Below are positions 1,017-60,420 of a DNA stretch of 64,000 nucleotides, piece by piece (positions within the stretch are counted from its first letter, which is position 1; each line of letters starts with the position of its first letter). Location: positions 1-64,000 of the forward strand of contig JABANP010000102.1 in the NCBI GenBank assembly GCA_013115135.1. The letters are read 5' to 3'. The notes under the pieces are model-generated. The model saw only the letters and a list, made by a program, of their open reading frames with translations. It was not told where the DNA came from and made no database searches. This DNA is from Perkinsus olseni (lineage: Eukaryota > Perkinsozoa > Perkinsida > Perkinsidae). The translations under genes and the position numbers were made by a program.

Positions 1017-2445
1017 AACGGACTAACTGAATCACTGAAGGAATATCGGTGCTCACATGCCGGACCAGCCTGACTACTCTGTTCACGTCCAGTGCCCACC
1101 CCTAGGATCCGGTCCCTAAAACGCTGGGATCGGCCTAGCTGGACTAACATAACCGATGTGATCAGTTCGTGCGGGCTTTATGCAGATATCTGTATCGCCG
1201 GTAAGCCTACCTTGGTCCGATGATGAGGTGAGGAACTCAGCCTGAGGGAAATCGATGTGAAGAGAATAGACGCTGGAAGGCAGAACTCGGGTGTTACCAT
1301 AACAACATCATCATATTCCACAACATGTTATTGGCGATACGGCTGTCAGCGTTCCCCCAATCGACTGGAGATCACCGAAGAAGCAACCCACTTGAAATCA
1401 GCAGACGTCCTCCGTGCTCACCTTCGTTGCTTGAAAACTCACTCGGAGTGGGCCACTCCCTCAGCCTTCTCCTCACTAGAAGACAACTCGGCCATAGCAA
1501 AGATTCAGAGATCGTCTCATACGATGCTTTCAACTTGCACCATTACTTGCGTGTGTGGATTAGGTCTCCACTCGGCAAGATGGCTTGCACACTCAACATC
1601 ACGTCGCTGTGACTTAAGGTATCGAGGTAAAGCGGGTGATGGCCTTGCCTGGCTGTTCTCGTGGCACCCTCTCTCAAGTTCAAAAAACAACTTGTAACGA
1701 TACGTGGCGAGAGACAGAAATTTTGTGCATGCGTGCAAAATAACCGTCGTACCAAATTTTTCACAAATCGTGACTATTTTTCGCCGCATCTTCTACGTTC
1801 GTCAACTACAGTTGTTTACGACGCTTATGTCTGTCAAGGTCATCGACACTCAGGGCCTCTGGCGGAAGATACGTAACCATGGGGAGACCGTCGTGATGGC
1901 CGCTTCTCAGGCCCTCAAGATTCTGATAAAAATGATTAACGTGGTGAATGAAATTTACTGTCAAACCGATGCGGCTAAGTACAGTGGTGTATCTAACAAT
2001 ATTGTAGTAAATACAGCACATGCCTAATGATACGAACAGGTTAATGTTCATAACCATATGAGACCTGTTCAACAGTCATCATATGAGAACGTGGTGTAAC
2101 GATACCATTGTCGTTTGCCTTCTACCTCCCCAGTGATGCTGATCTGAGAGGGATTGTTGGGAGCTCTTCCCAAGGGCCGTGCGTCCGACGCGAGAACATG
2201 ATGATACTGCGTTGATTACTACGCCCCTGCACAAGTTCTTAGCATATCCATTTTCACATCGTCTGCTTTCATCCGGCAGCTCGGGGATGTATTTTCTCAT
2301 TCATCGCTGAGAAACAAGTCTCCGAGAGTTCGGAGGATGATCTCTCGGCAAGAAGCTTTTCTCGTCCATGAGTAGTTGTGAATCAGCAGAAGGGTGTCTA
2401 TATCCGTGTCAACTAAGTCATTCTTCTGATCATCTATTCATTATC

Positions 2446-2638
2446 GCATATCAATCGTGGTGGAATCTTTCACCTCTAGCTCAGGCATTGATCCATCGGA
2501 CTGCTTGCAAAGTTAAGAAGTAGTTGAGGAGTGTATAAACCAGAGTCGGTGAAATCAGTTATCAATTATGATTTTATAGCCGCATATCGATCGTGGTGGT
2601 ATCTTCGACCTCCATCTCAGGCGTTGATGTATCGGAGG
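2446..2638 (+). repeat. Diverged direct duplication, ~55 bp x2
   Basis: About 55 bases from 2446 recur from 2582. Both copies start GCATATC, carry TCGTGGTGG followed by an ATCTT block, and share CATCTCAGGC-type and ATCGGA ends. The offset is about 136 bases and there are several substitutions, so this is an old tandem duplication. Confidence 0.65.
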
Positions 2639-3624
2639 TATCCGAGTACGTGAGTCGAGCTGATGATGATGAACCCAAGAGTGGTGTTAATATTACTCGA
2701 GAAAAGCTACTTCAAGAGGCTGATGCCTTCAAGGTGGGAATCTTTAAAAATCTTCCGGCTGCGCATCGCCTTGATAAATGGTCAGAATTTCTGAACGTTT
2801 AAGGTCGAAAGAAAACGATGGAAAAAACTGGGAATCTCGTGATTGAAGCTTGCGTGTCGCACAGTAGTGGTGACTAGAAAGCATACAGGAGTGCCCCGAA
2901 GCAAAGATACGTTTGAGAAATTCCGCGATTTTAATTTACCGTCATTCTCCTCAAAGATTCCCTTGCCCTGTCTCAGCGTAGCGTCGTGAAGTTTGGCTGC
3001 TTCTGTGCCCAACTACAGTCGGATGACGAGCTGTCTTCGATTCTTCTACCGGCCGGTCGAGAGCTGGCCAACACGTTCGGAGTTCTCTGCACTTGCATGA
3101 CGGCAGTCGCTTTAAAGGGTAGTAACGGCGGGAGATGCTAAAAGATCTCGTAAAATTGCCGTGACAGCCAGTGGTGAGCTTTGGGCTGAGAGACGTGGCA
3201 GTTGGTAGAAGATAGTCTGATATCATCAGGAGGGGACTGGCCCGCATCCTCGTTGTTGCTTCAGCGTTCTGTCTTAATTTATGCTACTTTTACGTTGACA
3301 ATAGGTCTATTACTCTATATTACTAATAGGTTTATGTGAAGAGCTTTTGTCTGTGATGGGGAAATTGCTTGCCGATGAGAATCTCACTATTGGTCGATTA
3401 CCTGTAGTTTGACTGAGGGTGAAGGAGCCTAGGAGCGGATGACGTATCTTGTCACCAATGCCCGACTCACAGCTCACACAGAGAAGGGAATGCCACCAAA
3501 AAAAGTTAGGCCACTTTGCCCTTTAAGGTCGATTTTCAGTAGCCTCTATCTTTGTCGTTACAGACTGAGTAACGTTGCTGCTGCTACGTGGCATTGTAGC
3601 ATATGAGCTTGGTCCCGTTTTCAG

Positions 3625-3758
3625 GAGGGAAGTGTTTGACAGCAGAAGTAGCGGCCCTGGGAGATGATATTAACAAACTGGTGGACAACCTCAACGCAGC
3701 AGCTCTCACGGACAGGGCTTCTGTCAGCCGGATCTGTAGTGTGCACGGGTCGACCTAA
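3625..3758 (+). CDS. Possible terminal exon, helical (hypothetical)
   Basis: After a good acceptor (TTTTCAG, ending 3624) a frame reads through a helix-favouring segment containing AEVAALGDDINKL and LNAAALTDR, then stops with TAA at 3756-3758. No family recognised. The support is the acceptor, the amphipathic composition and the stop; no donor partner was identified upstream. Confidence 0.25.
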
Positions 3759-4156
3759 GATACTCGCCCATTCATCTTCATGCGACTAATCCTACGATCT
3801 TTAGCCTGCCGCTTCCTGGGTTAACGCTGGATTTAATAATTTCTTGTGGTTCCCTCACCTCTCTTCCGTGACTGAAAATGCGCGACGAAGATTCTCAGAG
3901 CGGAGCGAAGCCGATTCACAGATCCACGTTCGCCTGAAGAATGCGTATTGTCTGCCTGCTGGTGGATGCTCCGTGTGTTTGACATATCTTTACGTTGAAG
4001 CATTTAATACGAAGTGGTGTGGTCAATGCTGCGGTTTGTCTACTCGAGTTCTCCGGTAATTTCGGGAAAAATTGGTATCAAAGTCATCGACGAATTATGG
4101 ATCTTCGAATGACGAAATTTCAATATCTCTCCCTCGCGCATCATCGTCGCTCGCTT

Positions 4157-4223
4157 GTGTTGGTGTTGGCTTTGGACTTTCTCCGACCGACCGAGTTTTG
4201 TGGCGCGCGAGAATTTCTTTCAG
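4157..4223 (+). repeat. Probable intron with the GTGGCGCGCGA core
   Basis: The acceptor region TTTTGTGGCGCGCGAGAA...TTTCAG closely resembles the last intron of the kinase gene (10962-11008), which carries AATTTCGTGGCGCGCGAC followed by a pyrimidine tract and CAG. I place the donor at GTGTTGG (4157); a second GT at 4164 is also possible. It would be a member of the recurrent mini-intron family described in the findings. Confidence 0.4.
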
Positions 4224-4459
4224 GTGGTGCGTTGCTGGAAAGAATTCAGCGGGTCAAAAAGATGTCCTTGGAGCCTTCGAGTGCTTGTCGGAAGATTGTG
4301 ACAAGGAATATCAAGTGTATGCAAGATGCGCAAGATGAGCTAGCATCCTCCCTCGAAAGGGCTAAAGAGGGGAAGAAAACGGAAGAGGGTAGTACTCGGA
4401 AGATGGTATCGGAAAGGGAACAAATATCTTCAATTTTCCATTCGCTCACATCTGTGTGA
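4224..4459 (+). CDS. Possible terminal exon, charged helical protein
   Basis: The open frame following the acceptor at 4223 ends with a stop at 4457-4459. The product is rich in K, E and R (segments DAQDELASSLERAKEG and MVSEREQISSIF) and looks like a coiled coil. No family recognised. The preceding intron carries the recurrent GTGGCGCGCGA core. The upstream exons were not resolved. Confidence 0.3.
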
Positions 4460-4837
4460 TGCAGTGATACACATTATCGTCTGAGTATGTGTAGGCATAC
4501 TTAAGATTGTGTAAAGTGTAATTTATTTTTGTAAAAATATATTTGGTCGCCAACTATATAACGTAGTGGTATCCAGTTTCTTGTATTAGTAATACATGAG
4601 ATTGTCTAAGGTGCGCTATAGTTTCAGTTGTCATGTAGAAAATTGAAAATAGTATTAAAATAAAACTGTTACACTCACGGGAAACAAGCCGAGGAATTGA
4701 AGTTTTTTTTCTAGAATACTTATCTTTTGGATAGTATATTATCGAGAACCGTTTTGTATACTATTCCAAGTGCCTTTCTATAATGCAAAAAGTCATTTTT
4801 ACGTTCAAAATTTTTATGCATTTTTGCTGGTTCTCAG

Positions 4838-5175
4838 AGGCTCCTGAATTAGTAGACGATGAAGAAGACGTGTTGGACTTTGATGGTGATGATGATTTAT
4901 TTCTCGTCGAGAGCGCGGAGGAATTGATAGGAGCGATCGGGAGTTTGGCTGGAGATATGAAAAGATTGGCAGTTTCGGCGGCCGATGATATCTTAGCGGA
5001 GCGAAGCAGAAAAGTATCTTCGAAAATTGACGAAATTGTGGTAGCAATTACGACGGGAAGCGACGACGAAGAGGAATTTGATGATTTGTTTGATGAGTTG
5101 GAAAGAGAAGGGTGTGGTGAAAGGATGGGGAAAGTGAGGGAGATTGTGCGGAGAGAGATGATATCCAAAGCTTGA
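4838..5175 (+). CDS. Acidic helical terminal exon (hypothetical)
   Basis: Begins after the acceptor GGTTCTCAG at 4837 and ends with TGA at 5173-5175. It has an acidic start (VDDEEDVLDFDGDDD), a helical middle (AEELIGAIGSLAGDMKRL), a second acidic patch (SDDEEEFDDLFDELE) and a basic end. The in-frame ATG at 4783 could instead make it a 130-residue single-exon protein. No known domain recognised. Confidence 0.35.
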
Positions 5176-5732
5176 GCGTGCAAGATACGAAATAGGTTGG
5201 GTTGGGTGTGTATAGTTAACGATGTTCCTTACTCTTACGAAACGTTTCTACTGTGCTATGGTCGGGTTGTGTGTGAATCCTTATCGAGTGGCTGGAGAGG
5301 CTCACAATTCCGATGATACTCATTTACGCACTTTCCCGTATTTTTTCGGGAAATTCGAAATTCAGTGTGGCTCGAATAGTCAAAATTTGAGTCGGAATTT
5401 TCGTGAAATTTGGACGAAATTTTCGTAGCATTCACCTTGGCTCGATGATAGCGTTGGCAGTTTTCTGAGGAATCCGCATAGTTTGGATTATTATATTTAT
5501 TATACCAAATCTCCACCAAATCAGAAATAGTAATGGATCGAAATCACTGTCATCTTGGACAGCTTCCATAGCTCGCGAGGTGCTAATTCGACGAACGTGC
5601 TCGAAAATTTTTCCGTAAATTTCGGAAAAAAGTGGCCGAGATTTTTCCCAGCCCATGGTGTCTACGAGTTTCATCTGGTCCCTTTTTTCGGTAAATTTCC
5701 GGACGTATCGATTTTCCTTTGCGTACTTTCAG
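5176..5732. other. AT-rich stretch with iterated GGAAATTT motifs
   Basis: No gene recognised. From about 5340 the sequence repeats short words built on GGAAATTTC, GTAAATTTCGG and GAAATTTTCG on both strands. The pattern continues inside the next open frame (5890-5960). This looks like low-complexity iteration, probably intronic. Confidence 0.4.
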
Positions 5733-6111
5733 GATTGTTTTCCTTCTGATGGCAACCGCATTTGCCTCGTCCACGCCGATGAAACTTTGCACGCATGCGC
5801 ACGACGATCTTGAACCGATTGAAGTTGTCAGGAAGGTCTTTGAGTATTTCGGAGGCCGACCGGTGCCGGGGGAGCTGCAGACGATGGCAGAGGGAGCCGA
5901 TGTTTTCGCGGAAAAGTTCGGGAAAATTTGTGCGGAAAATAACGGAAAATTTCTGAGAGAATTCATGGTCTTCGCGGGTGCTGGTCGACGGACCTTTCAC
6001 GGCTTGGTTGATGGAGTATTCATATTTGTGAGATGGTGTGCAGACTTGGGAGTTGATGTCGACCTGGATGCAGTGGAGATTATGAAAAGTAGTAGCAGGG
6101 AGGAGGGATGA
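5733..6111 (+). CDS. Small protein or terminal exon with hydrophobic N-terminus
   Basis: Open frame after the acceptor TTTCAG (5732), ending at 6111. An internal ATG at 5749 gives a protein of about 120 residues starting MATAFASSTPMK. Upstream of it the frame is hydrophobic (IVFLLMATAFA), which could be the end of a signal peptide if the first exon lies upstream. The rest contains two aromatic-rich helices and an acidic tail. No family recognised. Confidence 0.35.
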
Positions 6112-8282: not shown

Positions 8283-11202
8283 TGCGTAGAGGAATTCGAT
8301 ATTTTAAACGAGGTTGGCAAGGGGACTTACGGACAGGTAGTAGGGGGAGGTTGAACCTGGCGATTCACACAGAAAAAAGATACGATCCTCGAGGAGCATT
8401 CTCGTCCAATTCATTTTTCTTTCGATCCATCACTGATTGGCGCGGGGTTAGTTAAATATTTCACCAAAGAAATGGATAAATTTTAATAAATTTTAATTTA
8501 CCAAAAAAAATCATAAATTTTAATAAATTTTTATTCACCAAAAAAATCATAAATTTTAATAAATTTTAATTCACCAATGAGATTTTAAGAAAGTGAGCCT
8601 GAAACTCAGAACTGATTTACACATGTAAAATTTCGGAGAATTGATTTGGGCCTCCTTTTGAAAAGATATTTTTCGACCCAGAAAACTGCAATGAAAATTT
8701 TAGGAATTCTCAAATTTCATCGTAATCGATCAGCCGATCGATTTCCGCGCGGGGAGATACCTCCATGACTTGTCACCCGGCAGTTCTCCGGTGACTGGCA
8801 TTCACTTTCTGTTTCCGGTCAGGTTGTTTTTGTTTTTCCAGGTGTTTAAAGCCATCGATAAACGCACGCAGCAGTACGTAGCGCTGAAACGGGTGCTGCT
8901 GAAAAATGAGAAGGAAGGCTTTCCCGTCACGGCCGTGCGTGAAATAAAGATACTCAAGAGGTTACAGCATGAGAATGTCGTGAGGATGCTCGATGTAATG
9001 GCTGGGGCAGGATACGCGGGATTAACAGACTGTTTTTGCAATCAGGTTGTGTTTGCCAAACCGACGGACGCGGACAAGCACCGGGGATCTGTGTAGGTTG
9101 GTTTCTGGGTTCGGATGGGTTTTGGTGATCTTCTCCGTCCGCTGGGAAAATGGTTGGTCGCAAGTGTGGTGAGGACAAGTACCGTCGATTGGAGCTGTAC
9201 TTTCACATCGTGCTGATTTGCCACGTCTCTTTTCATGATCGGCGTCGGCTGTCACGCCAATGGTAGTCTTCAAAGCTCTTGTAGTTACCAGCTGCTGTGG
9301 TCTTCTCATTGTGGTGCTGCTGTTTCCGAGGAGAGATTCTCGGAGAGCACGGCGCGAGGCATTTCAAAATGCAAACTGCGAAAATTTTTTACCCCGATAC
9401 TCAGCCTCGATTCGGCGTGGGAAATGTGGTATGTGTTCTGTAGTCTGTAGTCCCGACGCTTACGGTTCCGGATCAGACTCTTGCCGCTCAGTTAGGGCCT
9501 GATATGCTATGAGAATATTATCGTTGCTGTTGATGTCAGGTATATGGTTTTCGAGTACATGGATCATGACCTTTCGGGAGTGTTGGCGTACCGCTCGCAG
9601 CGGACGGCTGACGGGAGCACGGGGCTGTCGAGTGGCAACCTGAGACCTGATGAAGTAGGATAGTTGGGAATTCGCACGAAGTATCCAAGGTTGAAGCATG
9701 GAAGATACAAAAATTTAGAGGGAGGGCGGAGCGATGCGTGGATCAGGTTAAGTGTATATTTCTGCAAGTGTTGAGAGGGCTGGACTACTGTCACAAGCAC
9801 AATGTGGTAAGTAGGGAATCTTGAGGTTACTCTGGTGGCAAGATACAAAACAGGTCGAGTTAGGTTCATCGAGATTTGAAGTTGTCCAATTTACTGTTGG
9901 ACAAGTTGGGACACATAAAAGATAGCAGATTTTGGACTGGCGAGGATCTACAAAGAGGGAAGGCTCAACCAGACCAACAGGGTCATTACTCGATGGTAGT
10001 AGCAGTAAGAGTCCAGCGGCTTGCTTGGGGATAGGCAACAGCGTTGGTTGTGGAGAGCTTACGGTGTGGTGACGTCCCCTTGGTCCTCTACCGGCGACCT
10101 GGATTGAGGAATCAGTTTAGTCGAATGGGATTATCATCATCTTGCGCGCTGGTTGAAAACACCGCCGCCGGGAATCGAACCCGGGACCTCTCCCATCTTA
10201 TTGTAGGTACCGGCCGCCGGAGCTGCTGCTGGGTACTACTATTTATGACAGTAAAGTGGACACGTGGTCGGCGGGGTGCATCCTGGCTGAGTTGATAAGA
10301 GGGAAGGCTCTGTTCCCGGGGGAGTCAGAGACGGAAGTGTAATTGTGTTGTGTGTAGGGCGTATCTTAGGTTGATGCTGGTTAGATACAGAATGATAGCT
10401 GATACGTTGGGAGCACCCTGTGAACAGATGTGGCCGGCTTGCACGCAGTTGCCGAATTATGCCCAGTTGAATGAAGCGTATCAACATATGCGGAAGATGA
10501 TGGGGGTATGCAGAGGTCCCGGGTTCGAATCCCACGGTTGACGTTTTTATTGCATTTTTCACTTGACCAATTCTGAAAAAAAGAATTTTCATTTTACGTG
10601 TACAGTAAAAAACAAATTTCGGAATCGGTTCTAAGTTTTAGGATTGGTTTGCTGTATAGTGAGTGTGGAGTATCTTTTTATTTGTTAGGCGTCAGCTTCG
10701 ACCTCCTCGTCGGTGCGTCAGACAGGCATTGGGTTGGGTGGCAGCAGCGCGAGTACGGGCAGACTGCCGGCTAGCATGATAGCGGCAGATGAGGGCCGGT
10801 TCTATGAGGTAACTCTCATTCGGAAGGTCCCTGGTTCGATCCCGGCATGCTGCATTTTTCCTTCTTTTTTTCTCAGCAACGGCAGACGTTCCGCCACGTC
10901 TTCTCCAATACAACAGAAAGCGGCAGAGATCTTCTGGCCAGGCTTCTGCAGTGCGACCCCTGTACGCCGCCGAATTTCGTGGCGCGCGACATTTTTCTTC
11001 GCATTCAGCTCGACGGCTTGACACAGCAGGGGCCCTCAATCACGGCTATTTCAGCGAGCATCCGCTGGCATGCAGCGCCCACAGTCTGCGGCTGTCCAGT
11101 AGTAGAAGCTGCCATGAGTTCACGACGACTAACGTTGGGCAAGCTACAGGAGGACAGAAGAGACTGGGGGCTATCACTGGTGAGTGTTGGAATATCTTTT
11201 AA
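8283..11202 (+). CDS. CDK12/CDK9-like cyclin-dependent kinase, 11+ exons
   Basis: Exons I can join: 8283-8336, 8842-8994, 9046-9092, 9540-9654, 9747-9806, 9864-9995, 10207-10338, 10391-10505, 10722-10808, 10877-10961, 11009-11202; all junctions are GT..AG and phase-consistent. Visible kinase motifs: glycine loop GKGTYGQ, catalytic lysine in VALKRV, PITAIRE-type helix PVTAVREIK, hinge [11 protein letters not shown], catalytic loop [16 protein letters not shown]-loop [23 protein letters not shown], and C-lobe [19 protein letters not shown] and YMDHDL at the hinge point to transcriptional CDKs of the CDK12/13/9 group, which phosphorylate the RNA polymerase II tail. The loop has Leu where Pro or Gly is usual (LKLSN). 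One extra A in the AAAA run near 9918 breaks the frame just before ADFG. The first exon upstream of CVEEFD is unresolved. Introns 6, 8, 9 and 10 carry unusual repeated cores (listed separately). Confidence 0.88.
8470..8580. repeat. AT-rich tandem repeat in kinase intron 1
   Basis: About three copies of a ~46-50 bp unit built on AAATTTTAATAAATTTTAAT followed by TCACCAAAAAAA-type spacers, lying inside the 505-nt first intron (8337-8841). The copies differ by a few bases. Confidence 0.75.
8724..8743. repeat. Intronic AATCGATC...GATCGATT palindrome (copy 1)
   Basis: AATCGATC and GATCGATT are separated by AGCC. Located in kinase intron 1. Two similar palindromes occur in antiporter introns at 13011-13030 and 14377-14394. 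Confidence 0.6.
9996..10206 (+). repeat. Kinase intron 6 ending in an antisense tRNA T-arm
   Basis: The last ~50 nt before the acceptor contain CCGGGAATCGAACCCGG, the reverse complement of a tRNA T-stem/loop (B box), then CTCTCCCATCTTATTGTAG at the splice site. The exon junction splits the Trp codon before YRPPELLL, so the intron call is firm. Confidence 0.8.
10506..10721 (+). repeat. Kinase intron 8 starting with a sense tRNA T-arm
   Basis: Right after the donor GTATGCAG comes AGGTCCCGGGTTCGAATCCC, a canonical B-box/T-arm. A T-rich tract follows. The acceptor is placed at 10721 by reading frame; GTCAG ending at 10695 is an alternative. Confidence 0.7.
10809..10876 (+). repeat. 68-nt kinase intron made of a tRNA 3' half plus pyrimidine tract
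   Basis: Composition: GTAACTCTCATTCGGA, then AGGTCCCTGGTTCGATCCC (T-arm), then an acceptor-stem-like tail GGCATGCTGCA, then a long T/C tract ending TCTCAG. Flanking exons read FYE and QRQTFRHVF in frame. Nearly the whole intron is tRNA-like sequence plus an acceptor. Confidence 0.85.
10962..11008 (+). repeat. 47-nt kinase intron with AATTTCGTGGCGCG core
   Basis: Begins GTACGCCGCC, then AATTTCGTGGCGCGCGAC, then a T/C tract ending GCATTCAG. Removal joins QCDP to [12 protein letters not shown], a typical CDK C-lobe, so this is a real intron. The same core recurs in several other introns here, on either strand. Confidence 0.85.
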
Positions 11203-12894
11203 GCGTGCATTTGGCGAGGTTGAAAGATTCCTTGTGCGGTTGGTGATGATGTAGCAGATGGTGCGAGGAAGTGGAGAAGTTTACGTAAAATTACGGTTTT
11301 TTTCGGAGGGATTTTCGAAAATTTTTGGCTGGCTCTGGTCTCGGGGAAGTTGATGATACTGTTGGGCATGCGTGCGATTTTCTGGGAATAGATCCCTCGC
11401 ATATCTTGGGTTGACCATGGATGGATATAGAAGAGGTCGAAAGATACGTATCTTTCTGTTCGTCGAGGTGCGGCATCGTTATACAAGACGGGAAGGGGGG
11501 ACTCATCGTCGCAGCGGCCGAGCGCGAAGAGGGTCCGACTGCCAAACGGATGACGATTATGATGATACACTACTAGTGCAATATTGATCAACTTTCTTAA
11601 TGACCGGTGTTGTGTTCATGCGTGCAGATTATTGATACCAACTTTTCCGCAACTTCCAGATGCGCCTCCCTCTCTCTGGTGCGCTGCTGTGGCATGGTGT
11701 TGCGGAGGAGAATCCTGTCGTCCAGCAGGTTGACATTGGCGAGGCCCTCCCTGATAAGCTCTGCCTCCAAGCAGGTAAGGGGTTAACATTGTTATGGCAC
11801 TTCGCAGAAACGGTCACATTTTTTTAAGATCATCGCGGCGACTAGCGTGTCGAAAAAACAGATTGCAACCCCTTACGAGGCGAGGTTAACTCTTCTCTTC
11901 TTTATTCCAAAAGATTGTGGAGTACTGAGTAAAATTCTGTAAAAACTGGGAAAAATGACCGTACACCGCCCCGCACGCATACACACGATTGTCTCCTGCG
12001 GCGGACTACCGTGGATTTTCCTTCGACACACGGAGTGTATCGATTACTTTATTTCGTGCTTCGTTGCATTTCCACCTTGCAGGGTGAAGAACGGGTGTGT
12101 CGTCCAGCCAAGGACCGTTTTCTTGCCCTCAGCAACGACGTCCAATGGCAACTTTTATGAGACCGAGGAAGCCCCATCGGTGGTGGTTGGGGAGGGGTTG
12201 TATAAGGACCTCGTCGCTAGAGCACGGGTGAGTCTGGATTTGGGAACAACTGCATGCCAGAAGCGGCGGCCTCGTGCGAAGTTCTGGCTTTAACGCGCCC
12301 ATCGATGTGCAGTATCTCGCTGCGGGGGATGTAGTAGTAGAACGCAACATACGTAGATTGGGCTCATAGTGAAGGAGATAGAGCGAGGAGTAGTCGACAG
12401 AATTGGAGTTAATGACGGGACACTGGTATGATAAAGCTAGTGAGCACACAGTTTATTCAAGTTATGTTACATAAACTCATGTAGACAGTCGAGGTAAAGC
12501 TCGCGCGACGCCCGACGGTGCCTGCTCTTCCGCCCTGCCAATCCGAGCAGCTCAATTGTGTGATGTAGACAGTTCACAGGGCTGCTCGGAAGAGCATCGA
12601 AAAAAGAATCTTTCTTTGTGCGTCTTTGGTAGTCCTCAGCGGAGGCCCAGCACGACCGGGTCATACAACAGCTGCACGCCGAGTTGACTGATCATGGCAA
12701 AAGTGTGGGGGAAGCAGGCGGAGCGAAGCACGGCAAATCGGCGGGGGGAAAGGTTAAACAAGTTGGAGAGGCTGAGAGAACTGAAGGACAGCACTTTCCA
12801 ATTCTGTGAGTTTGGCGGAATCTTGCAAGCTTGTAACTTCTTGCATTTCCTCAACGCGAATTTACTGATCGTCTGATGGTTGCTGTTCGATAAG
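11203..12894 (+). other. Short unassigned exon-like segments between kinase and antiporter
   Basis: Exon-like pieces exist but no family is recognised. One is around 11658-11775, containing MRLPLSGALLWHG and NPVVQQVDIGEALPDKL and ending at a good donor AAGCAG/GTAAGG. One is around 12084-12229, containing GNFYETEEAPSVVVGEGL and ending ARG/GTGAG. One is at 12694-12755, starting MAKVWGKQAERS, highly basic, and possibly the first exon of the antiporter. I cannot join these confidently. Confidence 0.3.
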
Positions 12895-15775
12895 ATTCAT
12901 AATCATCGCGGTGAGCGGTGGAATCTTTCTGTGCTGGGTGTGCGCCAACTTGGCTAAGTTTCTCCCTCCAACAGTCGCCGTCTTCAAGCTGGGCATGGTA
13001 AGATACTCCAAATCGATCACGTGATCGATTGTGATCCAGTTACTAGCTGTACTAATTCATCACGTGCCGCTGCATCGGTGGGGTGTGCTCGGCGACAGCA
13101 TCCAGACGTGAGGACTCGGTCTGTGGAATTTCGTGGCGAGTGACGCTTCAGATGGCTCACGGTGGATCCCCATCTGATGTGTTTTGTCTTCATCCCCATG
13201 CTCATGTTCGGCGACGTCCTTGCCCTCGACGCCAATCTGGTCCGGGGCGGGTTGCTGCAGTAAGTGCCTCGACGCTCTTCGTGGCGAATACTCTCGGGGT
13301 CTTTCGAGAAGAGAAAAAGCGGCAGATGAAATATTAGGAGATTGGTCGAAATAATACTGAAAAACTTTCCGTCGATTTTTTCGTGTCGAAATTTTCTGAT
13401 TACTTGGAAATTTTGAATGCTATTTTGATGACAGCGCGTTTTTGCTGAGGCTCATGTTATTATCGGTAGTAGGACGGAATCTTCTTGAGCGGGTTCAGCA
13501 CGGGTCATTTTGTGCTCTCGGGTTGCCCGTTGTACACCCCTCGACAAAATCTTATCGTGCGGCGTAGAATGCGATGATGGAACTGCATTGGAGCCTGAAA
13601 CCTGAGTCTAATACCTTAATGCATGTCCCACACCAACGCTGCCAGCCCGCTGAAGTACAGCAGCGCCTCGCCTTGTCAACGCCACACAATCTGAGAACGT
13701 CCTTCTACTTTAAATGGCACAGGCAATTCTGTTTCCTGCCTTAGCTGCTGTGTTCATAGCTTTTTACTATCCCAGGGTCATACCACTCCGCGCCGGATTC
13801 GTAGGCATCATGTGATAAATATCAAGATATCACGCGCTATCTGAAAACGCGAAGCTGACCCGTTCTCCATTCCCTGCCTACGGCGAATTTTGAACTGAAA
13901 TCCCCACTCTCAGAGCCGCCTTGATGGCCACCCTGGGCTTCCTCATCTCGGCCTTCCTCTCCTCCCTACCGACACGGTGAGGTGGTGGACGCCCGTCGTG
14001 CTGGCTTGCCGCCGAAGGTTGTGGAGCAGGTTCCTGCCATCAACGCGTAATTGGCCGGTGGCTTTGAGTGTTTGCTTCGGGGCTGTGGTGTCGGGAACAG
14101 AACCAACTGCGGCTATCTGGATCCTCAGGGCTCTCGGATGTAGGCCAATTCCGGCTGGGAGCTCTTTTCTGCCATTTTTGGACGATTAATTCCTGCCAGG
14201 GCAGCCATAAGCGCTTTGCCTTTCATCGCCATCGCGGCTGATTATCTTCGCTGTTTGGGTTGCGGAGGCTTCGGGGGTGGAGCATGATTGAGATGCTGTT
14301 GAACGATTTTTCACCTACAATCTTTTTCTAATGCTGGAGCGTCCCAATCTTGGCAGACTAGGAGCTATCGGTCGCTATCGATCGCGTGATCGATTAGTCT
14401 GTCCGGTCCATCATCGGTGTGTTGGTCTCAGCTACTCAGCGTTTGAAGACCTTGATGGAGACGGAGAGCCTGTTGGGCGATGGGATGCTCATCGTGCTAT
14501 ACTCGGTGGCCAAGACCGAGCTGGATGATCAAGTCTCACCATACGGACCACGTATGCCAAACGAGGGGAGATGAGTTTTGCCTATCGCGCCCGCCCTGCT
14601 GATCGATTTGATCCGTGGCTCTCTCCCTTCAGTCGATATTGCTGTGTATGTGGTCCGTGCTGTGATTGGATCGGCATCACTCGGTATGCTACTTGGTATA
14701 CACGGACTAACGGCCTTGGCGCACATCAGCAACAGGTATCATTTAATCTGACGCTGCTGTTCACTTCACCACTATTCCCGTCAGCCACCCGCACGCCGTT
14801 GATCGCTATGAGCATTCTCTTCCTCCTACTATCGCAGCCGTCCGCTCAGTGAGCGTCACGCGCCACGAAATTATGGGATAGGTTCGGTCAGTATGATCTG
14901 ACGCTACAGACCACCATAACGCTCGTTACGGCCTACGCCTCCTTCTTCATCGCGGAGGTCTACTTCGGGATGTCGGGGGTCATCACGACCTTCACAGCTG
15001 GCATGATACTCTCTTGGAGGTGAGCACGATGGAAATTACCGCGCGCCACGAAATTATTATCCTCAGGATGCGGCCGCTGTTAATAAGCAGCGAGGCTGTC
15101 GACTCGTTCTGGTCGGTGATGGAGTTCGTGTCGAACGCGGTCGTGTTCTTCCTGGGTGGAGTCCTCTTCGGCGATGCCTGCTACCGTGCGCAGCCGATAG
15201 AATTCCTTTGGTGAGCAGCATTGGCATGATGGCTCGTGGCATGCGAGACAACTTGGGAAAAGGACTCGGCGTTCGTCTTCCGAGAATAAGATGAATTACG
15301 AGGAAACTTAACGCATCTTAGTTTGGCCCTGGCAGAGCGTAGTGAGGTTGGTTAGAACTTCATAGCCCGTACCTTCGTCCTGTGACTAAGCACGATCGTG
15401 GAATTTTCAACAGGTTTGTTCCCTCTCTGGTTGGTCAGGTTGTTGGTGTTGTATCTTGCAACCATCGCTAGCCGAGCTATAATGGTCTTCACCTTATCCC
15501 CTCTGATAAATGCGGTCGGTGAGAAGTAATTGCGCATTGCATGCTGGTTGCGGGGGTAGAACCAGGGACCTCTCGGTCATTAGATACTCGTGGAAGGAGC
15601 TCACGCTATCAGCCTGGAGCGGCGGCTTGCGAGGTGACTCGCCAAGTTGAGCGCGTCGTTCGCTTTTCGCTAAACCCATGTTCAGGAGGGGTGTCCATGG
15701 CTCTGGCCGTCTCGCTGTCCCGTTCGACATTCCTCGATGAGGACCAAGCCACTCAAGTCTTCTTCTATTATGGAG
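12895..15775 (+). CDS. Na+/H+ exchanger (CPA1 family), 13+ exons, ends incomplete
   Basis: Phase-consistent exons: 12895-12997, 13040-13107, 13152-13259, 13914-13976, 14030-14139, 14432-14551, 14633-14735, 14786-14848, 14892-15019, 15067-15185, 15414-15525, 15584-15633, 15686-15775. Visible CPA1 landmarks in order: FVFIPMLMFGDVLALDANL (TM3 region), LLQAALMATLGFLISAFL, FGAVVSGTEPTAA (family: A-T-D-P), LKTLMETESLLGDGM (family: G-E-S-L-L-N-D-G), TTITLVTAYASFFIAEVYFG, EFVSNAVVFFLGGVLFG, LYLATIASRAIMVFTLSPL, WSGGLRGGVSMALAVSL. Such proteins exchange Na+ for H+ across a membrane. The ion-site Asp of A-T-D-P is Glu, and the Asn of the N-D pair is Gly. The conserved Arg of GGLRG is present. First exon(s) and the cytoplasmic tail after 15775 were not resolved. 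Confidence 0.85.
12998..13039 (+). repeat. 42-nt intron built around a 20-bp palindrome
   Basis: GTAAGATACTCC, then the perfect palindrome AATCGATCACGTGATCGATT (13011-13030), then GTGATCCAG. The palindrome is nearly half of the intron. Flanking exons read FKLGM and LLAVLIHHV in phase 0. Confidence 0.75.
13108..13151 (+). repeat. 44-nt antiporter intron, AATTTCGTGGCG core
   Basis: GTGAGGACTCGGTCTGTGG, then AATTTCGTGGCGAGTGACGC, then TTCAG. Splicing joins GDSIQ, the split Thr codon and WLTVDPHLM. Same core and orientation as the kinase intron at 10962-11008. Confidence 0.85.
14377..14394. repeat. Intronic ATCGATC...GATCGAT palindrome (copy 3)
   Basis: ATCGATCGCGTGATCGAT lies inside the antiporter intron 14140-14431. 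It is related to the palindromes at 8724-8743 and 13011-13030. Confidence 0.6.
14849..14891 (+). repeat. 43-nt antiporter intron, antisense CGCCACGAAATT core
   Basis: GTGAGCGTCACGCGCCACGA, then AATTATGGGATAGG, then TTCGGTCAG. It is the reverse orientation of the core seen at 13108-13151. Splicing in phase 0 joins TIAAVRS to YDLTLQTTITL. Confidence 0.8.
15020..15066 (+). repeat. 47-nt antiporter intron, antisense CGCCACGAAATT core
   Basis: GTGAGCACGATGGAAATTAC, then CGCGCGCCACGAAATT, then ATTATCCTCAG. Splicing joins AGMILSW to MRPLLISSE in a consistent phase. Confidence 0.85.
15526..15583 (+). repeat. 58-nt antiporter intron with an antisense tRNA T-arm
   Basis: GTAATTGCGCATTGCATGCT, then GGTTGCGGGGGTAGAACC, then AGGGACCTCTCGG, then TCATTAG. 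It reads as the reverse complement of the tRNA-like intron 10809-10876, including the GCATGC word next to the acceptor-stem side. Splicing joins NAVGEK to YSWKELTLSAWSGGLRG, so the intron is firm. Confidence 0.85.
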
Positions 15776-20917: not shown

Positions 20918-21989
20918 GTTGCTCTACGTTACTGTTGTGTTGGTGAAATGAATATGTTTGGGATGTTCATTATCATAGGTCTGTTTGTAGCTGCGGTGAG
21001 CGCCGGAACCTCCGCCATGGCATGTATCCTCTGCAGTAACGACGAGTCTTAAACTCCGGGCGCAAACTCCGTACCGGGCGTGTATCGGGGTGTCAGCTCA
21101 CAGCACACTGTTCGGTGAGACTCACAGTGTAGGTCAGTGAGTCTGTCAGACTCGCACCTTGTGACTCACTGACTGTGAGCCACCTAAGCCTTTAAGGCTT
21201 ATCCTCAGTTCAGAGTCGCTCAGCTGGCTTCCGCGGCTCATTTATGCACGAAAAGGCTGACTTGCATAACGGTTTGGGTCGGTCGGCAGGGTCCGGTAAT
21301 TTTCGCGCGCCCATAACATAACAATGGATGATGAAACGGTTCTGAAACGGTGTTAATCGATTTTCACTCTCATTATACCTTTCGAGTTTCATTGATAGCC
21401 TCTCCTTATTAAGCAAGTTATGTCGCAAAAGGTTCGCACTGTACACATATTTTTGCTATATTTTGACTGTAATTTGCTTCTGATTCTGCGGGGTGCATTT
21501 TGACCTGAGTAACAGAGTGACCTGAGATCGCTGTGAGTGGCTGCGTTTAGCAAAGAGCGTGATCAAATTGTATGGCCCGTCAAGACGCTCTGGAACCGAC
21601 GGAGTATCACAGGCTGTCGCGATATTTCTTTGAAAATACGGCTGAACAAGTCTCTTGGACTCTCGAGTACATCACAGCACAGCAGCTGGCCACAGCGTGA
21701 GGTTCCGCTCGAACCGTTCAAAGACCCGCATGGGGCCAGAGGTGTCAGATGAGGTGAGGATGGACATTTCTCGCTCGCCTCGGGCGTGCTCCTGTGCCAT
21801 CAACCGAGCTGGGTATCGTTTCCATAGGTCGGTCGTGGTCTTGTGTCTCGCATATTGCGAAAGCCGCGTTTCATCGCAAAGCGCTAGCTGTACTATGTGC
21901 ACTCTCGGGTTTTCGTGGAACGTGAAAGAAGCCTTAGCTTTGTCGTCTCAGCCTTGGGGAGATTTTACAACGTTCATTCCGTCGAATTG
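20918..21989. other. Intergenic stretch with imperfect hairpins
   Basis: No gene recognised. 21118-21180 forms a long imperfect hairpin (CTCACAGT/ACTGTGAG, GTCAGTGAGT/ACTCACTGAC). Inside it is the one-base-spacer palindrome GAGTCTG-T-CAGACTC at 21139-21153. Confidence 0.5.
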
Positions 21990-23003
21990 ATGAGGGTTCA
22001 CGTCGTCGTATACCTGGTCACAGCCCTCTTCGTTCCTGTGACCGGCGAAGATGTTTACTGCCACAAAACCAGCAAGTATAAGTTGTGTGCTACGGTGAGC
22101 TCCGCAAAGAAGCAGCATCTGCTGAACTTCAAGGCTACGCCGTTTTCTGAGGGACCGAAAATAAGATTCGCCACAGGCGACTTGCCCTTTAGAAGCCAGG
22201 GAGACAGTGGGTGCTGGATTCCAAGGGGGCCAGTGACTGATGCTCACGAGGAGATGTTCTCCGGTGTGAGAGAAATTACCAAGCTCCCATGGATGGTTCT
22301 CAAGAACATCAAAGTGTGTCCAAGGAGGGATGGTATGTTAATCATTGATGCCGCTAAGCGTAGTCGCAGAGTTTTTCTAACGAACACCCGATCCACTGCG
22401 GAGGAAAAGCGCCGACTTGAGGTTGCCTTTAGACATCTCCTAGCCAATAGAAAGAGGAAGAACCCGGGCGCCGACATCACCGAACCGCGGCCTCTTGAGA
22501 GAGGGGAAGACGCTCTGTCCAGCGGCCATCGGGAGAGCTTTTCCCGTGGAATGCCCAGTGGGCACTTCTGCAATTCCCAGCCTGTAGGTGGACTGACTAA
22601 GCTGTTGGTGACTATGAGCAATGATGGTGAAACAGTCAATGCATCACTCCTGTTCTTCGGCGATAAACCACTGGCCGCGGTCGGCATGAAAAGGGTACAC
22701 GTTATCAGTTCTCTACCACTATCGTCGTCGTCTCTCGTGCCTGGCCGTCTAGGGCTGTCATTGTGGAGCGTCGAGCGGAGTTTGGCAGATTCTGCCCACA
22801 TTAAGAGCACAGACAAGATTCTTGAGGCAGTCGGGAAGGAGGCAAGCATACCGTTACTCGGTACTACAAACCTTCACATTCTTTCTGACGAAAACAGCGG
22901 AAGCATCGGCGCCTTCTTCGGGAGCAGCGATGTTCTCGGGACTCCGGCACTGTGGGTTCCTTTGGCGAGAACGGCTTGTCGGATTGTGGACCACAATTTG
23001 TGA
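21990..23003 (+). CDS. Family A secreted protein, copy 1
   Basis: 337 residues from ATG 21990, chosen because it gives a clean signal peptide (MRVHVVVYLVTALFVPVTG) directly before the conserved EDVYCHK start. Domain 1 (about 20-135) has paired Cys (VYCH, then KLCATV), LNFKATPF, GDLPF, KVCPRRDGMLIID. A basic linker (around RKRKNPGAD) follows. Domain 2 (from GMPSGHFCNSQPV) ends with LGTPALWVPL. Copies 2 and 3 lie 2.0 and 5.3 kb downstream on the same strand, so this is a tandem expansion. No named family recognised. Secretion is inferred from the signal peptide; the basic linker resembles a nuclear localisation signal. Confidence 0.75.
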   Translation: MRVHVVVYLVTALFVPVTGEDVYCHKTSKYKLCATVSSAKKQHLLNFKATPFSEGPKIRFATGDLPFRSQGDSGCWIPRGPVTDAHEEMFSGVREITKLPWMVLKNIKVCPRRDGMLIIDAAKRSRRVFLTNTRSTAEEKRRLEVAFRHLLANRKRKNPGADITEPRPLERGEDALSSGHRESFSRGMPSGHFCNSQPVGGLTKLLVTMSNDGETVNASLLFFGDKPLAAVGMKRVHVISSLPLSSSSLVPGRLGLSLWSVERSLADSAHIKSTDKILEAVGKEASIPLLGTTNLHILSDENSGSIGAFFGSSDVLGTPALWVPLARTACRIVDHNL

Positions 23004-26563: not shown

Positions 26564-27269
26564 CGAGCGATGGTCAGGCTGGATGGCCACACAACTACGC
26601 GAGTATCATGGCCACAGCGGTCGTGAAGAAACACAACTCTCTAGGTAGACAAGGACGCCGTCAACACCAACAACGTCGTCGCAGAGCTAATAAATGTACA
26701 CGCCAATCGCGCTACATGCAAATGGTTCCACGAGGAGCCTCTAGCCGGTGGCAGTGGAACTGTTACAACATCTGTGATGAAGCATCTACTGTAGTGCTCC
26801 GAAGACATCCGTTGTGGATCAGAAGGCCGCCGTCACCGATTATGACATGAACATGGAATGATCCCGGTTGCACGACGCAAGTTTGCATATTGCGTCCGCC
26901 TCGAGCGACATTTCCGGGCCAAATTTCGAGCTAACGCATACTTCATGGATGGGACGGGGGATTGCGCGCTGATTGTCGGTGGGCCGAGCAAATATAAGCG
27001 CTCCTTGTGATTGCATTCATACTGCGATTATTTAACCTGATTTTGCGACGAGCGCGAACCAAAGACTATCGTCGTGTCAACGGTGTGCGATAGACAGTTT
27101 TGAGGAGTTCGTGAGACTCTCCGGTGAATCGTGGATCCAGCATCATGAGGAGCTCGTCCCCCAAAGTTCTCCTATCGTCTCGCCCTGAATGCGATTTCGA
27201 TAGCCCATATTGTGCAAAGTGACAATACTGTTGTTTCCCTACCTCCAATCGGTAGGTTGTCTTTTCCGT
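26564..27269. other. Divergent intergenic region
   Basis: Lies between the minus-strand gene and family A copy 3, so it probably holds both promoters. No coding family recognised. ATATAAG around 26992 is a possible TATA-like box, unproven in this lineage. Confidence 0.35.
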
Positions 27270-28408
27270 ATGACGAAGTCGAGCTTGCTGCTTATTGCGG
27301 TTATAGCTTCGCTCGACACTATACGAGGCGAAGGCGTGTACTGCTACGAGGATGATCAGTTCACATTGTGTGCAACCGTCATTCCAGAAGGAAAGGAACA
27401 TATTCTGAAGTTCAGGGCAAAACCGTTCTCTCAAGGTCCGAAAATTAAGTTCGTTACGGGAGACATACCCTTCGCGAAGGAGCGAGGCGGCGGTCAGTGC
27501 TGGGTTTTAAAACGGTCAGTGCCTGCTGAAAAAAGAAAGAAGTTGTACGGTTTGGGCGAAATCATCAGACTTTCGTGGTTCGCTCCCGAGAAGGTCAAGT
27601 TCTGCCCGGGGAAAGATATCATAACCATCATCGATACGACTGATGACAATAATAGACTTGTCTTGACGAACGTCCGCTCTGCTACGTGGGAGAGCCAGAA
27701 AAAGAAAGCGCTTGATCCTTCCCGGTCCAATAAGAGAATGCAAAGCCAGAGAGCTCCTAAAATTCCGCCGCAACTGCTGGCAAGGATGAGAGCTCCTCTC
27801 CTAAGCGGTGATCCCTTTGTTCAAGGGAGCACATCTCACGAAAGAAGCACGGCCTCAAGTGGCCATCCTCACGTCCAAGAGGGCATATCACACTACGACG
27901 GAATCACGGTCTCAAGTGGCCGTCCTCACGCTCCTGAGAGCACGTCTCATGAGATGCGCATGGGGAAGTTTTGTAATGCTGAGCCCATTAGTAGTCTGGA
28001 TAACCTTTGGGTGGACCTGAGGGAGGGTGGTGGATTGGTAAAGGCCTCATTCTTCTTTGTCAGCCCTGTGGATTTCTTCGAGACTGGCTCCAGGAAGGTG
28101 TATGCTACCGGTTTTCTGCCGCTGTCACGATCCTCTCTGGTGCCCGGGGGGCCAGGGCTCTCGCTATGGAGCGTTGAACGGGGCTCCATGGATCCTGCCA
28201 CTAGAGAGTCACTGGATAAGGCGCTCGAGTTTGTTGGCAAAACAACGGGTATACCATCATTCGCCACTGACACTGTCAGTCTGACAGTGTTCATATCCTT
28301 TTCGACGAAGATAGGAGGAACATGACGGCTCTCATCGGGGATTCTCTAGGAACCCCGACGCTGTGGATTGCCCTCACCGATCTGGCCTGTGGGGTTCCAG
28401 CCCTGTGA
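27270..28408 (+). CDS. Family A secreted protein, copy 3, C-terminus frame-broken
   Basis: Start ATG 27270 gives the leader MTKSSLLLIAVIASLDTIRG and then EGVYCYEDDQFTLCATV. It is the closest copy to the family pattern (FRAKPFSQGPKIKF, GDIPF, FCPGKDIITIID, basic linker around SNKRMQSQR, MGKFCNAEPI). The linker contains three degenerate repeats of about 20 residues around SSGHPHV. The frame entered at 27270 stops at 28323-28325. The family C-terminus (VHILFDEDR, then LGTPTLWIAL) continues in another frame to TGA 28406-28408. The break coincides with the palindrome at 28270-28290. Removing 14 nt gives the same spacing as copies 1 and 2, so a 14-nt palindrome-forming insertion disrupted it. Copy 3 may make a truncated protein or be a young pseudogene. 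Confidence 0.7.
28270..28290. repeat. One-base-spacer palindrome inside family A copy 3
   Basis: Arms of 10 bp (ACACTGTCAG and CTGACAGTGT) flank a single T at 28280. It lies exactly where the reading frame of copy 3 departs from its paralogues. Confidence 0.85.
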
Positions 28409-59073: not shown

Positions 59074-59146
59074 GGGGGACTAGCTCAAATGGTAGAGCGC
59101 TCGCTTAGCAAGCGAGAGGCACCGGGATCGATGCCCGGGTTCTCCA
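59074..59146 (+). tRNA. tRNA-Ala (AGC)
   Basis: 73 nt fold as a full cloverleaf. Acceptor GGGGGAC pairs with GTTCTCC (two G-U pairs). D-arm GCTCAAATGGTAGAGC. Anticodon stem GCTCGCT-TAGCAAGCGAG with anticodon AGC at 59107-59109. T-stem CCGGG/CCCGG, discriminator A at 59146. The T-loop reads ATCGATG, so position 54 is A rather than the usual T. A TTTT run at 59160-59163 can stop RNA polymerase III. It sits 5 nt from the fucosyltransferase ATG and 5 nt from the stop of the next minus-strand gene. Confidence 0.92.
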
Positions 59147-59151
59147 TTATA

Positions 59152-60420
59152 TTATAGCGTTTTCCCTCGTCTTACTTGTGCTACTCTATGCCCTCGATAG
59201 TCCGAGTTGAGCATAGCGGTGATTAACTGCAACTCGTAGACAAGTTTTGCAACTATCCGCACGAACGGCAGCACCAGACGGTCGGCCAGCTGCTCCCACG
59301 GCGCAGTGTGACCCAGCGAGCTATCGTCCACCGCACTATACCAAAACAAAGGGGTAGTCAACTGAGGGGACCGTATAAAATAGAGTAGCTGAGGGCCATT
59401 GTCGCGGCTACTTCAGTAACCCAGGCTGCATGCTCATAAGTCTCCGCAACTTGAGCCATATTCACTCCTGTTTCTCCGAAGGCCCATATGGCAGCGGGGA
59501 CACAGTAGGGGTCGACCTCCTCAACTTCACCGTAGATGAAGGCTCGATCGACTGACAGTATCTACTAGACACCGCTGAGGATGACGGGAGAGGGTGGAAC
59601 GCTCACGTAAGTGTAAATGGAATTGAGAGCGTTGAAAAGCTCGTTCATCTCCACCAGGCTGCTGCTGGGGTTCTCGCGAGGGCGCGCCGAGCAGATCCTA
59701 AGCCCACGGCTCACGAGCGCGGTAGTTGATGGTTTCCGGTAGACGAACCTGCACAGTTCTGTGTCCAGAACTGCTTCTATTGGGGAGGACTTCTCTCCAT
59801 CACGGCCTGAGTACGCCTGTCTTTGCCAAGGTAATGGCTTGTTGCAGAGCATCAGTTCGAATTGCAATAATTGAAGACAGCGTCTGAGGAGCCTTATGAT
59901 GCGCCTCGATTGGGGTGGAGGGGGAGCGGGTTTGTGGACATTTGAAGAGTCCACAGAAGGCGGATGCCCGACGGGCAGTCGTGAAGGTTGCGCTCGTATC
60001 TTTCAACCTCGAAAGTTACGCGAAGGATATGATACTTGGTTGCAAGGGAAGGACGGCATCTTTCTGAGGAGTTCTTCCATGCTGTCCACAACCTCTTCAG
60101 CAATCACTAAATTGGTGGTGCGGAACTCGATGATCCCTGAGAGGTATCGGAGAGCCTCTCCCACAGTGCTGAGCATTGCATCATTTGGTGGCACGACCTG
60201 AATACACCAGGGTTCGATCCGCGCCACAGGTATTTTTTCTCACGGGTTCCACCCCAGCGCAAGCGGCTTCAAGTCGGTCGAATGCGCCTTCGACTTGAGA
60301 TGAGAAGGCTGCAGCTGACGAACTCCACCCTGCAGAGGCTGGTCCAGCGCTCAGCATCTACTTTGTCTGCTCACCTCCGAAGCAGCCACTGTCCTTCTCC
60401 TGTTGAGCCGCGCATCGCCA
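59152..60420 (-). CDS. Unknown multi-exon minus-strand gene
   Basis: Exon-like segments in order: ~60303-60244 (SSQVEGAFDRLEAACAGVEP), 60197 down to ~60060 (VVPPNDAMLSTVGEALRYLS, VIAEEVVDSMEELLRKM), ~59800-59565 (SPIEAVLDTELCRFVYRKPS, VEMNELFNALNSIYTYVS), ~59545-59385 (DRAFIYGEVEEVDPYCVPA, QVAETYEHAAWVTEVAA) and ~59320-59152 (LADRLVLPFVRIVAKLVYEL). The stop is at 59152-59154. The first two segments are joined by a 46-nt intron (60243-60198) that contains an antisense tRNA T-arm. Helical protein, no family recognised. Confidence 0.5.
60198..60243 (-). repeat. 46-nt intron containing an antisense tRNA T-arm
   Basis: Read on the minus strand: GTGAGAAAAAATACCTGTG, then GCGCGGATCGAACCCTGG (reverse complement of a T-arm), then TGTATTCAG. 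Flanking exons read in phase 0. It has the same arrangement as the end of kinase intron 6. Confidence 0.75.

Follow-up and report, generated by a model that had tools for sequence, protein, structure and literature searches.

Results

Predicted introns that carry a tRNA 3'-end-like element

The stretch of DNA analysed here, hereafter the window, comprises positions 1 to 64,000 of contig JABANP010000102.1 (assembly GCA_013115135.1) of Perkinsus olseni, a single-celled shellfish parasite. A CDK12/13-like kinase gene, a Na/H antiporter gene and a gene on the minus strand are together interrupted by five segments that we read as introns, each containing an element of about 37 nucleotides (nt) laid out like the 3' end of a tRNA. 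We suggest that such elements, derived from tRNA 3' ends and introner-like in behaviour, have probably inserted in genes and created spliceosomal introns. The predicted introns and their elements are as follows.

9996..10206 (+): kinase intron 1, 211 nt, with an antisense element near the 3' splice site; Pkinase domain continuous after removal
10155..10191 (-): tRNA 3'-end element, antisense to the kinase gene; T-arm word at 10171-10181; 41.3 bits
10506..10721 (+): kinase intron 2, up to 216 nt, with a sense element near the 5' end; read from sequence and frames
10512..10548 (+): tRNA 3'-end element, sense; T-arm word at 10522-10532; 39.3 bits
10809..10876 (+): kinase intron 3, 68 nt, more than half of it a sense element; splice-site score p = 0.0075
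10823..10859 (+): tRNA 3'-end element, sense; T-arm word at 10833-10843; 35.8 bits
15526..15583 (+): Na/H antiporter intron, 58 nt, with an antisense element; splice-site score unremarkable (p = 0.33)
15537..15573 (-): tRNA 3'-end element, antisense; diverged T-loop word GGTTCTACCCC at 15553-15563; 23.2 bits
60198..60243 (-): intron of the minus-strand gene, 46 nt, GTGAGA...TTCAG (p = 0.14), with an antisense element; frames open on both sides
60201..60237 (+): tRNA 3'-end element; T-arm word GGTTCGATCCG at 60211-60221; 23.7 bits

An earlier note on this DNA had pointed out these five segments as introns with a tRNA T-arm or 3' half, and its description is borne out: the word GGTTCRANNCC is exact in the three kinase introns, at 10171-10181 (-), 10522-10532 (+) and 10833-10843 (+), and has relatives with one mismatch in the antiporter gene, at 15553-15563 (-), and in the minus-strand gene, at 60211-60221 (+); the elements lie in sense in the introns starting at 10506 and 10809 and in antisense in the other three; and three of the introns are as short as it had said (68, 58 and 46 nt). 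For kinase intron 2, two acceptors keep the frame and place its end at 10688 or at 10721; the frames were read with the latter. Kinase introns 1-3 occur in both homeologs of the region (C226 and C275), in both of which the antiporter intron can also be aligned. Kinase intron 3 is similar to two predicted introns in other genes, one on C7, where the match starts at the first base (GT), and one on C19, where it ends at the last base (AG); beyond this intron, loci share mainly the core of about 37 nt.

The kinase-antiporter region is present in three copies (L077, L078, L079, L080; C226, C275), 91-94% alike over most of their length and 77-85% elsewhere. In the window copy of the kinase, the exon before intron 1 (9880-9995) is frame-shifted relative to the intact homeologs C226 and C275, through either an assembly error or a real lesion. 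Duplicates of other loci lie on C134, C283, C94, C318, C340 and C225; 25 of the 31 queried loci have none.

Abundance of the word and of the element

Within the window by itself, exact GGTTCRANNCC occurs three times against 1.16 expected, which is not significant (three or more in 11 of 100 shuffles), and the 31 places with one mismatch allowed are at chance level (27.5 expected). In the genome as searched (61.5 Mb, 968 contigs), the T-arm word is abundant beyond chance, GGTTCGAATCC being found 496 and 492 times on the two strands (988 copies) against 12 and 14 (26 copies) for the reversed word, and the 22-base core of the element has 22 copies, its control none. A matrix built from 38 loci gave 11 matches above 20 bits over 264 kb and a single one in the reversed sequence; retrained on its own matches it gave 18 against none, three of the 18 being true tRNA genes. 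The 15 others correspond to about 3,500 elements per genome (95% limits about 2,000-5,800).

The 48 loci collected by the word cover 49 of the 100 word places listed, the window adds one more, and 50 further listed places, tandem clusters included, lie outside this sample. Seventy-two elements were compared, namely 38 found by the word, 15 from contig C1 and the window, 13 by the 22-base core (19 loci, from which six duplicates were removed before counting) and six (L081-L086) by similarity to introns, which biases the set towards introns. True tRNA genes occur in regularly spaced tandem arrays on C778, C154, C172, C142 and C108.

Anatomy of the element

ARAGORN recognised a complete tRNA at 10 of the 48 loci and none at the other 38, where full tRNA genes were accordingly rejected. 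In these 38 loci the common stretch begins about 10 bases ahead of the word and reaches 26 bases beyond its first base, with the consensus AGGTC-CCGGG-TTCGAAT-CCCAG-N4-GGC-A-TTTTT. The layout is that of a tRNA 3' end with its terminator: variable loop, T-loop, seven-nucleotide acceptor strand, discriminator A and terminator all stand at tRNA spacing, the element corresponding to tRNA positions 42-73 or so plus a run of T, with the 5' half mostly absent. Over the 72 elements, information is high at AGGTC (tRNA positions 44-48) and in the T-arm, whose uniformity is partly explained by the use of the T-arm word as selection criterion, then low at acceptor positions 66-69, and it climbs again at GGC, the discriminator A and the T-run.

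Upstream of position -10 the loci have nothing in common except a weak preference for G at -34, which corresponds to G18 (P = 0.016, with 62 positions tested). A B-box is present in every element by choice of the search word, and an A-box-like word lies upstream in 3 of 72. Degraded full tRNAs were also considered and rejected, a 5' acceptor partner at tRNA-like offset being found in two cases against 1.5 in shuffled sequence (P = 0.48); over the range 63-90 there are six against 2.5 (P = 0.04), with no consistent place. Rfam had no match to its tRNA family at a permissive threshold in 20 loci, where weak matches to the tmRNA family fell on the T-arm of L043, L044 and L058 (9.7-10.5 bits, cut-off 47); at the gathering threshold, in 18 more loci and the window, the sole match was a tRNA at 59074, away from the element sites.

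Elements at different loci match one another over 29-57 nt at 83-100%, with several copies in different conserved genes. Among the copies are subfamilies with the endings ATGTTGC-A, AGAGGGC-A and ACCTGCC-A. A longer dispersed repeat (L038, L050, L073), of up to about 170 nt at roughly 74-78%, has the T-arm word in or near it and is possibly a longer relative. Another repeat, 86% alike between L046 and L054 over about 160 nt, holds the word, and its word-free part recurs in L035 and in the antiporter region of the window (12820-12857).

Protein domains across the removed segments

Twenty spliced peptides were searched against Pfam, a domain spanning the joint being taken as support. In 12 a domain crosses the joint, over the Pfam cut-off in nine (kinesin, phosphoglucose isomerase [PGI], HATPase_c, SNF2, FAD_binding_8, UCH, CK2 kinase, zinc_ribbon_6 and the window kinase) and below it in three (Response_reg, WD40 and Na_H_Exchanger). 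The kinesin joint falls inside AYGQT-GSGKTYTMG. Compared with the best solved structures, PGI has no gap at the joint, the deubiquitinase aligns ungapped over a piece (55-102) that crosses the joint after residue 60, and SNF2 has a one-residue gap beside the joint. Five of the 12 elements run antisense to their gene, namely those of FAD_binding_8, UCH, WD40, the antiporter and window kinase intron 1; seven run in sense. This continuity of protein domains suggests that the segments are spliced out in the cell.

With kinase intron 1 removed, Pkinase is recognised at 1.2e-18 over residues 1-68 of 70, the joint coming after residue 25, and all 120 matches among the database proteins listed align over 90-100% of the peptide, none of those listed being named Perkinsus. 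With the antiporter intron removed, Na_H_Exchanger spans residues 13-64 of 68, with the joint after 46 (E = 4.7e-4, below the cut-off). The earlier note had taken correct frames on both sides of the five introns as a sign of splicing; domain evidence agrees for kinase intron 1 and, below the cut-off, for the antiporter, and does not reach the minus-strand gene around 60198-60243, whose spliced peptide has open frames and no Pfam domain.

Fit to short introns

GT...AG pairs 40-75 nt apart around the core score better than expected: of the 72 elements, 19 reach p ≤ 0.05, where chance predicts 3.6, and 28 reach p ≤ 0.1, where it predicts 7.2. Compared with random positions the excess has P = 2e-11, and compared with other GC-rich words 2e-10. 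Once the 11 domain-checked loci are set aside, 20 of the remaining 61 elements still reach p ≤ 0.1. At 9 of these 11 loci, the best-scoring pair is the intron that the protein domain supports. In a local test based on coding potential, 27 of 53 elements reach p ≤ 0.25 (13.25 expected). Predicted introns make up 19% of the 200 kb of contig C1 and hold seven of its 10 elements (P = 7e-4); of the other three, one is in a predicted exon and two are outside both. The gene finder behind these predictions was home-made, was trained on the same sequence to which it was applied and had its minimum intron set at 30 nt; at an earlier training stage it recovered 10809-10876. From the excess of 28 minus 7.2 out of 72, element-bearing short introns may number, as a rough figure, a thousand genome-wide.

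Other observations

A further word, CCGTAGCCATCTTGGCTCAAG, which we take to be the Perkinsus spliced leader, forms a tandem array on C268 (207896-235713) and has 85 copies in the genome against none for its control. In the window, the frames 21888-23000 and 27204-28322 have similar cysteine-containing starts; for the latter, only two proteins are among the matches listed, both named Perkinsus olseni. One protein of the window shows 100% identity, along 91% of its length, to a Perkinsus olseni protein.

Discussion

In this study, we examined short repeated elements in the introns of Perkinsus olseni. Our findings favour, at a probability of about 0.7, a model where introner-like elements derived from tRNA 3' ends inserted in genes and thereby created spliceosomal introns. 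The earlier note had proposed tRNA-derived, ready-made introns resembling the ends of short interspersed elements (SINEs). The first part is the reading that best fits the tRNA 3' geometry, the occurrence in both orientations and in unrelated conserved genes, and introns that are mostly too short to have been there before the element; the likeness to ordinary SINE ends is not supported, given that 3 of 72 elements have an A-box-like word upstream, that 5' acceptor partners are not in excess and that no target-site duplication was found.

How an insertion of about 37 nt could turn into an intron is suggested by its two ends. In sense, the end of the variable loop, AGGTC, together with the bases preceding it would serve as donor (e.g. 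GTAGGTC or GTGAAGGTC), and the T-run would serve as pyrimidine tract and acceptor (TTTTTTCAG). In antisense, the donor (GTGAGAAAAA, GTAAAA) would come from the T-run end, read as its complement, and the acceptor (GACCTTCAG, GACCTCTATTCTCAG) likewise from that of the variable loop. Since both ends resemble splice signals on both strands, splicing in either direction would be explicable.

That tRNA-derived repeat fragments landed in pre-existing introns, which tolerate them, is unlikely, even though elements occur also at places with no recognised intron, longer repeats hold the word (L038/L050, L046/L054), and window introns 1 and 2 (211 and 216 nt) are long enough for an insertion into a standing intron. 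Introns of P. marinus are given as 39-1622 bp, most below 100 bp (PMC3101222), and the predicted introns here have their 5th percentile at 40 nt, with the floor of 30 set beforehand; yet no more than 26 nt lie outside the 37-nt core in 39 of 46 introns (a count that excludes one alternative border of L112 and that of C1:14546), and at most 22 nt are left in 10 of the 12 domain-checked loci, so that in most cases no older host intron would fit. Repeated convergence, with the T-arm word selected within introns as a TFIIIC B-box site or as a splicing signal, would explain why the T-arm is uniform among copies (in part an effect of the search word) when part of the acceptor is nearly random. We consider it quite improbable, because the element is found in both orientations, a B-box needs neither a T-run nor a discriminator A at tRNA spacing, and between homeologs the element has diverged at much the same rate as the remainder of the intron (5/111 vs 20/374 sites for C226; 5/110 vs 20/379 for C275), a small sample of little power that indicates no function.

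DNA transposition would fit the majority of the introners on record (PMC9860276), and the T-arm likeness might be fortuitous in an introner of that kind. This is very improbable in view of a tRNA likeness that spans variable loop, T-loop, the 7-nt acceptor strand, discriminator A and terminator, and of the lack of target-site duplications beyond the level of controls. Hardly credible, finally, is the proposal that the segments are not introns and that the open frames across them are accidental: the gene finder in its final form missed all five window introns and several splice-site scores are unremarkable, but in 12 of the 20 peptides a conserved domain continues over the joint, in nine of them above the Pfam cut-off.

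Nonetheless, several observations weigh against an origin of these introns by insertion of tRNA 3' ends. As to splicing, seven of the 20 spliced peptides had no Pfam domain and one (L061) was matched by Pfam only on one side of the joint; at the kinesin and PGI loci, the best-scoring GT...AG pair differs from the domain-supported one; the coding-based local test gives a weaker signal, 8 of the 53 elements reaching p ≤ 0.05 where 2.65 would be expected; and, apart from the domain-checked loci, intron borders were mostly picked by eye. The final gene finder calls none of the five window segments an intron (0 of 5, against 7 of 10 on C1), though domains support kinase intron 1, over the cut-off, and the antiporter intron, below it. 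As to insertion, target-site duplications do not exceed the controls: the mean repeat at the borders is 2.5 for the 33 introns and 2.8 for the 341 controls, measured at the offset where splicing restores the exon; a duplication of 2-4 bases may lie hidden in the splice consensus. No empty site was seen among duplicates within this genome, to which the comparison was confined: at six of 31 queried loci the duplicates (seven copies, 92-100% alike, one of them nine bases shorter) all span the element, and both homeologs keep it at the four window introns compared.

As to a tRNA parentage, the core is in none of the true tRNAs examined, which represent part of the tRNA species (Met, Leu, Ser, Arg, His, Ala; Arg, Ile, Thr; six partial sequences), which lends no support to a direct origin from working tRNAs. 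A parent tRNA with the acceptor GCAACAT was considered and discarded (18 matches vs 15 in the control). Pairing in the T-stem is often disrupted, many copies sharing the same mismatches, and no covariation is seen, on which ground selection on RNA structure in the T-stem was rejected. The elements thus do not represent functional T-arms, and mismatches that recur from copy to copy suggest that variants already altered have themselves multiplied. Acceptor positions 66-69 are nearly random among copies, as one recent master would not explain; together with a constant T-arm, this fits an origin from more than one source or master.

An RNA route is possible, since reverse transcriptase domains are common in this genome, with at least 150 matches (150 scored of 421 candidates), and copies may have arisen by reverse transcription of the 3' ends of RNA polymerase III transcripts. 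More tentatively, and at somewhat less than even odds, we propose that tRNA 3' ends derived from RNA, be they tRNA halves or fragments of the 3' trailer, continually supply new spliceosomal introns, of which about a thousand may have been made in this way in Perkinsus. A reverse-transcribed copy landing in an exon could be spliced at once, the variable loop and the polymerase III terminator being similar to splice signals on either strand.

tRNA-derived SINEs and tRNA retropseudogenes are dispersed, tRNA-related and followed by a T-run. The Perkinsus elements are likewise dispersed and tRNA-related, with a T-run at their end; unlike SINEs, they almost never have an A-box or 5' half, show neither target-site duplication nor a common tail past the T-run, and appear as whole introns.

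Introners, too, are many similar introns in unrelated genes of one genome, with splice sites carried or recruited (PMC9860276; Collemare et al. 2015, PMC4457414), and some known families are described as lacking target-site duplications and terminal inverted repeats (Gozashti et al. 2022, PMC9860276). The Perkinsus elements appear to behave like introners, for which an empty site and splicing in RNA are the features that constitute proof. Described introners are mostly DNA-transposition-like (PMC9860276), whereas the body of the Perkinsus element is a tRNA 3' end, apparently an intron on both strands; the words "tRNA", "SINE" and "Perkinsus" do not occur in the main text of that paper. In Amoebophrya, a related alveolate parasite, introner elements likewise form repeated introns; these have non-canonical splice sites and show inverted repeats (8-20 nt) as well as direct repeats (3-5 nt) that extend across the borders (PMC7789003). 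Unlike these, the Perkinsus introns studied are GT-AG, have direct repeats not above controls and contain a tRNA-like core. Among the literature matches listed, Perkinsus and introners are mentioned together only in the Amoebophrya genome paper (PMC7789003), and no tRNA-derived introners, Perkinsus or alveolate introners of this kind, or intron gain linked to tRNA are described, a coverage outside which subscription papers mostly, and preprints wholly, fall. In agreement with the earlier note, we know of no previous description.

The origin of new introns is a long-standing question, and the mobile introns described so far are mostly DNA-transposon-like. A family of introns made from tRNA 3' ends would, if true, point to an RNA-based route that uses material every cell makes. 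A body of this kind would explain why insertions may be spliced in either direction, and it yields predictions that can be tested with RNA sequencing and the genomes of related species.

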